64,000 nucleotides of DNA, from assembly GCA_030531215.1 (NCBI GenBank), contig JAUNNY010000005.1, forward strand, positions 1 through 64,000, given 5' to 3'. The DNA is from Erysipelotrichaceae bacterium. Its GTDB lineage: Bacteria; Bacillota_I; Bacilli_A; Erysipelotrichales; Erysipelotrichaceae. The translations under genes were made by a program, and so were the position numbers. This document shows, piece after piece, positions 50,137-51,525 of this stretch. The stretch's first letter is position 1; every line of letters begins with the position of its first letter. Below the pieces are notes generated by a model that saw only the letters and a program-made list of their open reading frames with translations, was not told where the DNA came from and ran no database searches.

Positions 50137-50631
50137 ATGAAAGAAATCGAAATAACAGAATTAAATAAATATGTTGATCCATTGTCTATTGGAAATGATC
50201 CGGCAATAGTCATGGTTTCTGATGGTAACGAAACCAACGGCATGACTATTGGTTGGGCAGGCTTTGGCGTGTTATGGAAGAAACTGATGGCAACTGTTTA
50301 TATTCACAAACTTAGATATTCAAAACATATCTTTGATAATGCTAAGTATTTTGCAATTTGTTTTATGAAACCAGAACACAAAGAGATTGTTAAATATTTC
50401 GGAACTGCATCAGGTAAGAATGAAAATAAAATAGAAAGATGTGGCTTAGAAATTATAAATGATACAGCGCCATACTTTAAAGATTCTAGAGTAGCAGTAA
50501 TATGCAGAAAAATGGGGCAATCCGATTTTGATATCAATCATGTAGATGAGGGTGTTGAAGCATGGTATCAAAAAGATGGAGTACATAGTCAATACTATGG
50601 AGAAATAGTCAAAGTCTATGTTTCAGATTAG
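50137..50631 (+). CDS. Flavin reductase-like FMN-binding protein
   Basis: 164 aa with the flavin-reductase split barrel: NDPAIVMVSDGNETNGMTIGWAGFG, VYIHKLRYSKH and MKPEHKEIVKYFGTASGK. Likely NAD(P)H:FMN oxidoreductase or FMN-binding protein. The start at 50137, two bases after the previous stop, is preferred to the GTG at 50128, which overlaps. It ends right before the promoter of the RNA locus at 50652. Confidence 0.82.
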   Translation: MKEIEITELNKYVDPLSIGNDPAIVMVSDGNETNGMTIGWAGFGVLWKKLMATVYIHKLRYSKHIFDNAKYFAICFMKPEHKEIVKYFGTASGKNENKIERCGLEIINDTAPYFKDSRVAVICRKMGQSDFDINHVDEGVEAWYQKDGVHSQYYGEIVKVYVSD

Positions 50632-50651
50632 TGTATTTTAATAATAAATTA

Positions 50652-50660
50652 TGATATAAT
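50652..50660 (+). promoter_or_regulatory. Extended -10 promoter of the structured RNA
   Basis: TGATATAAT at 50652-50660 is an extended -10 (TGnTATAAT). The predicted start near 50667 (G) opens the structured RNA. The -35 region (TGTATT at 50632) is weak, as tolerated with an extended -10. The same nonamer precedes efp (51526) and pfp (59258). Confidence 0.65.
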
Positions 50661-50666
50661 TTTTTT

Positions 50667-50874
50667 GCTGAAAAGCTAGGGTGTGATGGATTAAAATTCC
50701 ATTATTGAATAATAGAAGATAACGTTAGATACTTACTATTATTCAATGAACCAGTAAGTGTGATTGGCCTTACTAGCCTGACCCACGGGCTAAAAATAAA
50801 GTGGTCTACCATGGCTGAAATGCCCCAATCAAAAAATAACTTAATGAGCATCCTTGTTGGTGCTCTTTGTTTTT
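50667..50874 (+). ncRNA. Structured RNA of unknown class upstream of a nuclease-like gene
   Basis: About 208 nt from the predicted start to a terminator, with no ORF. Stems seen: GCT/AGC (50667-50676), ATGGA/TCCAT (50686-50702), a perfect 12-bp stem ATTGAATAATAG/CTATTATTCAAT (50704-50715 with 50735-50746), AGTAAG/CTTACT (50753-50758 with 50769-50774) and TAGCC/GGCTA (50774-50778 with 50788-50792). Two loops can pair downstream: TGATTGG (50761-50767) with CCAATCA (50825-50831), and GACCCAC (50780-50786, one bulged C) with GTGGTC (50801-50806). These would be two pseudoknots. It is not a recognisable tmRNA, RNase P RNA, SRP RNA, T-box or riboswitch. It may be an antitoxin RNA, a novel riboswitch or an sRNA. 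Confidence 0.6.
50846..50874 (+). terminator. Terminator between the RNA and the nuclease-like gene
   Basis: GAGCA (50846-50850) pairs with TGCTC (50861-50865), followed by TTTGTTTTT. It ends 9 bases before the start codon of the next gene, so that gene is transcribed only by read-through or by a promoter not seen here. Confidence 0.75.
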
Positions 50875-50883
50875 ATTAGAGAT

Positions 50884-51501
50884 ATGTATGACGATTTGCT
50901 ATACAATAATTTAATATATTTTGAAAACAACATTATTCCAAATGTATTTGTTTTGCATACCAAAAATGGAGCGATAGTAATTAAAGCAATCAAAGAAAAT
51001 TTTATGCATTTAGTAGGAGCTCAACATTCGCCAATTATTCAAAACGCTCTGCCTGCTTCACTTTTTTATAATAATGTCAAAAACAAAAAAATGTCTTTAT
51101 ATTCCATTGTGGACAAGAACAATCTAAATAATCGCGAATTAACATACGTTGAAAATAACATTGTAAACAAAAACTTATTTTTTGTAGATATATTTGAATC
51201 ATTGATAAAATGTAATGCAAATTTATATGTGTATTCTAGAAAAACAGGTTATAACAATGCTTTTGACTGTGATTATCTTCATTTTGTTTACAAGAATTAC
51301 ATGGGATTATATTTAGGTTTTGTTAGAGACAATAAAAGTGATTATCATTTCTTTTCATCAATAATTGTCGAGAAAGACAAGCCATTGAAATATCTTACTA
51401 ATGAGAGAATTAAAATTACTAAAAAAGAAATAATTAATATTGAGCGTTTCGATATAAACAAATTAGTTCTAGTTTCATCAAAAAGAAATATTCATAAATA
51501 A
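50884..51501 (+). CDS. Putative BECR/PBECR4-type nuclease-fold protein
   Basis: 205 aa, Asn-rich (about one residue in seven). The segment AIKENFMHLVGAQHS near residues 40-54, and a later region beginning KNYMGLYLGFVRDNKSDYHFF, resemble PBECR4-type proteins (phage Barnase-EndoU-ColicinE5/D-RelE-like nuclease fold), many of which are toxin-like. This is from memory and not computed. The frame is open from 50854, but that TTG lies inside the terminator; ATG 50884 is used with a weak ribosome site (TTAGAGAT). Low expression would suit a toxin. An unrelated protein cannot be ruled out. Confidence 0.55.
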   Translation: MYDDLLYNNLIYFENNIIPNVFVLHTKNGAIVIKAIKENFMHLVGAQHSPIIQNALPASLFYNNVKNKKMSLYSIVDKNNLNNRELTYVENNIVNKNLFFVDIFESLIKCNANLYVYSRKTGYNNAFDCDYLHFVYKNYMGLYLGFVRDNKSDYHFFSSIIVEKDKPLKYLTNERIKITKKEIINIERFDINKLVLVSSKRNIHK

Positions 51502-51525
51502 AACATTAAGATTTAATTGACTAGT

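Follow-up and report, generated by a model that had tools for sequence, protein, structure and literature searches.

Is the small, nuclease-like protein encoded at this locus held in check by the structured RNA that precedes it? The locus occupies positions 50652-51501 (+ strand) of the window, by which we mean the whole 64,000-nucleotide stretch of DNA that was analyzed, from an Erysipelotrichaceae bacterium of the gut. In it, an extended -10 box, followed by a non-coding RNA and then an intrinsic terminator, precedes a 205-aa ORF. An earlier note, made without database searches, had likened this arrangement to type III toxin-antitoxin systems, which include ToxIN/AbiQ, CptIN and TenpIN (PMC5086642, PMC4627078, PMC8860590). 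Apart from AbiF, the toxins of known type III systems come from essentially a single superfamily. Our analysis indicates that the cassette is likely a type III-like toxin-antitoxin system that combines a new toxin family with a non-repeat antitoxin RNA, its toxicity, RNA binding and neutralization being inferred.

Layout of the cassette

An extended -10 promoter element (TGATATAAT, 50652-50660, + strand), identified by its sequence, is followed on the same strand by a non-coding RNA, the predicted antitoxin (50666-50876, ends uncertain). The intrinsic terminator between the RNA and the gene (50846-50875, +) consists of a stem at 50846-50865 plus a T-run; 0.1 such terminators would be expected in shuffled sequence, and equivalents are present at loci L082, L081 and L064. 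The terminator ends 9 nt before the ATG (50884) of the 205-aa ORF (50884-51501, +; stop codon 51499-51501), which encodes a PBECR4-like protein, the predicted toxin, containing the motif NFMHLVG. The architecture is shown, and the cassette meets the criterion for a type III-like locus, namely an RNA gene, an intrinsic terminator and a toxin-like gene in series as one unit. No convincing -35 was found upstream of TGATATAAT, and a promoter scan returned promoter-like sites no more numerous than in shuffled sequences; the cassette promoter is therefore plausible but unproven. The positions that the earlier note had given for the -10 element, the RNA, the terminator and the ORF held, the promoter being the weak part. 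The ORF has only a weak Shine-Dalgarno sequence.

A covarying RNA structure

The predicted folding energy of the RNA is -55.9 kcal/mol (z = -3.4), a stability that none of 200 shuffles reached, and the RNA is conserved upstream of homologues of the protein. Folding predicts a P3-like 5' hairpin (50686-50702), for which relatives have an equivalent GTAGA..TCTAC hairpin, and a long variable hairpin, P4 (50705-50746). Beyond these lies a core common to relatives that is composed, 5' to 3', of stem Pa with its GATTGG loop, hairpin Pb, the partner strand of pseudoknot PK2, hairpin Pc, the CCAATC strand of pseudoknot PK1 and the terminator. Pa (AGTAAG/CTTACT, 50753-50774) closes the loop bearing GATTGG (50762-50767), the 5' strand of PK1, which pairs with CCAATC at 50825-50830. 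The loop of Pb (AGCC/GGCT, 50775-50791), GACCCAC at 50780-50786, pairs with GTGGTC at 50801-50806 to give PK2, and Pc (50813-50824), directly before the PK1 3' strand, is predicted as a hairpin in 10 of 11 relatives with differing sequences. All of these features are on the + strand.

Covariation was assessed by comparing the pairing strength between arms of the same RNA with that between arms taken from different RNAs. Self pairing beat cross pairing for Pa (p<=0.001), PK2 (p<=0.002) and PK1 (p = 0.018), with variants that include AGTAAG/CTTACT, ACAGG/CCTGT, CAAG/CTTG and AAGGC/GCCTT at Pa, and GACCCAC/GTGGTC, TGATTCAC/GTGAAATCA and TCCTT/AAGGA at PK2. The p-values are only approximate, because the anchors were placed by hand and some of the sequences are closely related. 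Conservation and covariation of the RNA are shown by these comparisons, and the expectation that the RNA be conserved along with homologues of the protein was borne out at 4/4 loci (window included), where the helices covary. That the cassette RNA forms a double pseudoknot is accordingly supported by covariation and likely.

The RNA had been described as lacking an obvious tandem repeat, which held: none was found in the window RNA. Searches of Rfam, riboswitches included, gave no match at gathering level and only chance-level matches, and a plain BLAST comparison of the RNA with relatives returned short chance matches only. We rejected 6S RNA (RF00013) as an identity for the window RNA; the 6S RNA of the same genome is located on contig C8. 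Further copies were found with a DNA pattern and a covariance model built from the RNA finds in the window, in Thomasclavelia genome G077 and at L064, a locus from the window genome's family. The covariance model recovered three copies that had been left out of its building, with E values from 4e-9 to 4e-4, and a fourth at 5e-13.

Membership of the protein in the PBECR4 superfamily

The 205-aa protein has no direct match in Pfam (PF18813 included), PHROGs, NCBIfam, PADLOC or PDB; single-sequence searches of phage, plasmid, viral-contig and genome-contig sets found no relatives, and the protein was not found in 35 genomes of the same genus. A search across the order yielded two homologues, both in G077 (36% and 31% identity, E values 8e-27 and 7e-13). 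An in-frame TAA at L082:5987-5989 splits a G077 homologue, and since the downstream part stays in frame, this copy represents either a pseudogene or an assembly error.

Profile methods connected these proteins to PBECR4. A profile of the three window-family sequences reached a true PBECR4 protein, L084 (PF18813 E value 9e-10), and when 15 PBECR4 proteins from other genomes were combined into a profile, the window protein obtained 27.9 bits, compared with 12.9 bits for the best of 20,000 shuffles. Profile-profile comparison with hhalign aligned residues 6-77 with a probability of 92% and an E value of 5.5e-7; both sides have the F.HL.G motif in common, and the His of HL.G is conserved. The protein at L064 is an intermediate, matching the window-family profile at E 1.2e-9 and PF18813 above its curated cut-off, and it carries the same kind of RNA directly upstream. 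Based on the profile scores and this intermediate, therefore, the window protein is a divergent member of the PBECR4 (PF18813) superfamily. The PBECR4-type assignment made in the earlier note thus held by way of profiles and L064, in the absence of a direct Pfam match.

The earlier note had also favored a BECR-type fold over a MazF/Kid-like one. Neither the Pfam and PADLOC searches with the window protein nor the PDB search with the PBECR4 profile returned a ToxN-type match; AlphaFold models made with one and with three sequences had pLDDT values of 31-32, too low to show a BECR fold, with its expected N-terminal helix His and C-terminal Ser/Thr, so the fold remains unconfirmed. Viral-contig scans for PBECR4 relatives gave nothing usable. 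Nuclease activity of the window protein is a prediction that rests on the description of the PBECR clade in polyvalent proteins of phages and mobile elements (Iyer et al. 2017, PMC5512222).

Pairing of RNA and gene, and an empty site

The window-type RNA lies directly upstream of 4/4 homologous proteins found (the window protein, the two in G077 and the one at L064), and at all four loci a terminator and a start codon follow close behind it. Because the pairing is found in 4/4 cases and the RNA occurs in only 6/316 genomes, chance adjacency of RNA and gene is very unlikely. In the nearest relative, G004, whose efp protein is 97% identical to that encoded in the window, BLAST and alignment to the efp locus showed that the flavin reductase gene is joined directly to efp and that 50613-51499 (+ strand, ~887 bp), corresponding to the whole cassette, is absent as one block. 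Co-inheritance is shown by these data, the RNA and the gene acting as a single unit that is gained or lost whole. The edges of the cassette (50613-50631 and 51505-51525) look as though the 3' end of the flavin reductase gene had been duplicated and had then diverged, which may reflect block insertion at a gene end.

Seven of the 11 window-type RNA copies are solo, without the protein gene alongside: Faecalibacillus faecis has three of them, G073, G070 and G213 have one each, and G077 has a second copy. The solo copies carry their own terminators with no gene behind them (L095, L097, L118-L121) and are possibly orphan antitoxins or remnants. Widespread occurrence of the RNA without the gene would, according to the earlier note, have refuted its reading; the solo copies partly touch on this point, yet the RNA is rare. 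At L119 and L121, solo window-type RNAs adjoin other toxin-antitoxin genes: in G070 the neighbor is a MazF-like toxin, identified by a Pfam match, and in G213 it is a DinJ-like antitoxin, recognized by eye. A second, different RNA is present at L081:8020-8140, just before the window-type RNA and its gene, and resembles, by eye, the RNA upstream of the PBECR4 gene at L141; by appearance, L081 could be a cluster of antitoxin-like RNAs.

The same layout across PBECR4 genes

PF18813 is present in 21/196 genomes of the order, and inspection of 27 PBECR4 loci indicated that most of the genes are preceded by a structured RNA and a terminator. Quantitatively, an explicit detector placed a terminator within 90 nt (<=90 nt) of the start codon at 20/26 PBECR4 loci compared with 27/179 control genes (p = 3e-10), and the upstream sequences had a mean fold z of -3.1 compared with -1.2 for controls (p = 7e-6). 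Upstream tandem repeats in two copies (period 54-84 nt) were present at 9/29 PBECR4 loci and 7/275 controls. The control genes were drawn from the PBECR4-study loci themselves and are not a random genome sample. Loci beyond the first sample agree with the layout (L203, with 53-nt repeats, L204, L208, L209 and L182); at L208:1640-2516, on the Enterococcus faecium plasmid pEfm741160-vanA, two 55-nt tandem repeats, a terminator and a PBECR4 gene follow one another. PBECR4 relatives occur in 77 plasmid records, 74/77 of them from Enterococcus and 55/77 conjugative. The layout is missing in a small PBECR4 subgroup (L139, L140 and L142). Its generality is otherwise shown, and the new pairing of an RNA with a PBECR4-type protein that the earlier note had suggested is supported and extends to PBECR4 genes in general.

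At two loci of different lineages, the RNA in front of the PBECR4 gene belongs to a known family: drum RNA (Rfam RF02958) lies directly upstream, with a terminator between, at L132:898-1005 and L204:2029-2134 (minus strand). Judging from position alone, partnering PBECR4 is a likely function of this orphan Rfam family. Skipping-rope RNA (RF02924) was found downstream of the L082 gene (L082:6660-6739) and, in G183 (L150), directly in front of it lies no intact gene but a degenerate PBECR4 copy upstream of which it stands. As a general PBECR4 partner it was rejected, since PBECR4 is near only 2 of the ~30 loci having this RNA.

Comparison with known systems

Like ToxIN/AbiQ, CptIN and TenpIN, the cassette presents a structured, antitoxin-like RNA, an intrinsic terminator and a small toxin-like ORF in that order, and the RNA is pseudoknotted; the two-copy tandem repeats of many PBECR4 relatives are a further likeness, to ToxI. 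It differs in that its RNA is a single, larger double pseudoknot without repeats and in that the toxin is PBECR4-like by sequence, with no ToxN-type sequence match in Pfam, PADLOC or PDB. Membership of the cassette in ToxIN, CptIN or TenpIN was rejected on the absence of a ToxN/AbiQ (MazF/Kid-like) match, the fold being unconfirmed. Another parallel is AbiF/RCd22 of Clostridioides difficile, in which an upstream small RNA, with a terminator between, neutralizes a toxic non-ToxN protein (PMC12373285). Both loci have a small RNA directly upstream, an intervening terminator and a protein outside the ToxN family, whereas AbiF (Abi_2) is unrelated to the window protein and its RNA is composed of two short motifs.

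The PBECR clade has been described without an RNA partner (PMC5512222). The window protein belongs to the superfamily by profile evidence and has the F.HL.G motif in common with PF18813, but it is encoded, as at most loci examined, by a stand-alone gene behind an RNA rather than within a polyvalent protein. The drum RNA parallels the window RNA as a structured RNA directly upstream of PBECR4 genes; the window RNA does not match it, and Rfam lists drum as an sRNA with no stated partner protein. No paper linking PBECR4 to an RNA antitoxin was found in the open-access literature searched (subscription papers and preprints were outside the search), and within that literature RNA-antitoxin control of the PBECR4 family is likely unreported.

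Proposed mechanism and alternatives

In the model that we propose, the promoter would drive a short, highly structured RNA, most transcripts ending at the terminator, and occasional read-through would yield the mRNA of the PBECR4-type protein, a predicted metal-independent endoribonuclease of the BECR kind. Because the terminator would be leaky, as inferred from type III systems and AbiF, the RNA would be in excess over the mRNA; folded into its double-pseudoknot body, it would bind the protein directly and keep it inactive. Should transcription drop, as when a phage shuts it off or the cassette is lost, the RNA would decay first and the nuclease would be freed. Nuclease activity, toxicity, RNA binding, neutralization and a role in phage defense or addiction are all inferred, not shown. 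The type III-like arrangement claimed in the earlier note is thus supported by layout, co-inheritance and covariation, its function being inferred. Several observations count against this reading: 7/11 RNA copies have no adjoining protein, the window RNA has no tandem repeats, PF18813 misses the window protein, the AlphaFold pLDDT is 31-32, L139, L140 and L142 do not have the layout, and L082 contains an in-frame stop.

The alternative that survives best, unlikely as it appears, is that the RNA, instead of inhibiting the nuclease, activates it as a cofactor or guide, the two forming an RNP effector like those of retrons or Cas-like systems. It fits co-inheritance and covariation equally, and two pseudoknots suggest tight protein binding. 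However, the short tandem-repeat RNAs and terminators before related PBECR4 genes mirror ToxI antitoxins, many unrelated RNA classes accompany one protein family, and solo RNA copies without the protein suit antitoxins, not cofactors. That the RNA inhibits the protein, rather than activating it, is an inference, with no observation here to show it.

A cis-acting leader, whether a riboswitch or an attenuator, that governs read-through into the gene is very unlikely. The RNA, terminator and start codon do lie in series, with the terminator ending just before the ATG, but copies of the RNA also stand by themselves, each ended by a terminator of its own and followed by no gene (L095, L097, L118-L121), and no Rfam riboswitch matches. 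Because different RNA classes front the same protein family, toxin-antitoxin co-evolution is favored over a riboswitch. Least favored of all, and likewise very unlikely, is an independent small RNA gene that adjoins the protein gene by chance, for which the solo copies speak (7/11) and against which stand the RNA directly upstream in 4/4 homologues and a block gained or lost whole. The earlier note had allowed for both a riboswitch and chance adjacency; the former is disfavored by the solo RNA copies with their own terminators and the latter by the 4/4 pairing and the empty site.

Significance

If the type III-like reading is correct, type III systems would gain a new toxin family in the PBECR4 branch, and a role would be assigned to a Pfam family viewed so far as phage effectors. 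Orphan RNAs such as drum would be explained, and the findings would point to an unnoticed stability or defense module on Enterococcus faecium resistance plasmids. A bolder reading, toward which the evidence leans by a modest margin, is that PBECR4 as a whole represents a second large class of RNA-neutralized toxins beside the ToxN superfamily, one whose antitoxin RNAs are of many unrelated kinds (tandem-repeat, drum and double-pseudoknot). Such a class would be carried by chromosomes as well as by conjugative plasmids of Enterococcus, and through it at least one orphan Rfam RNA would gain a function.
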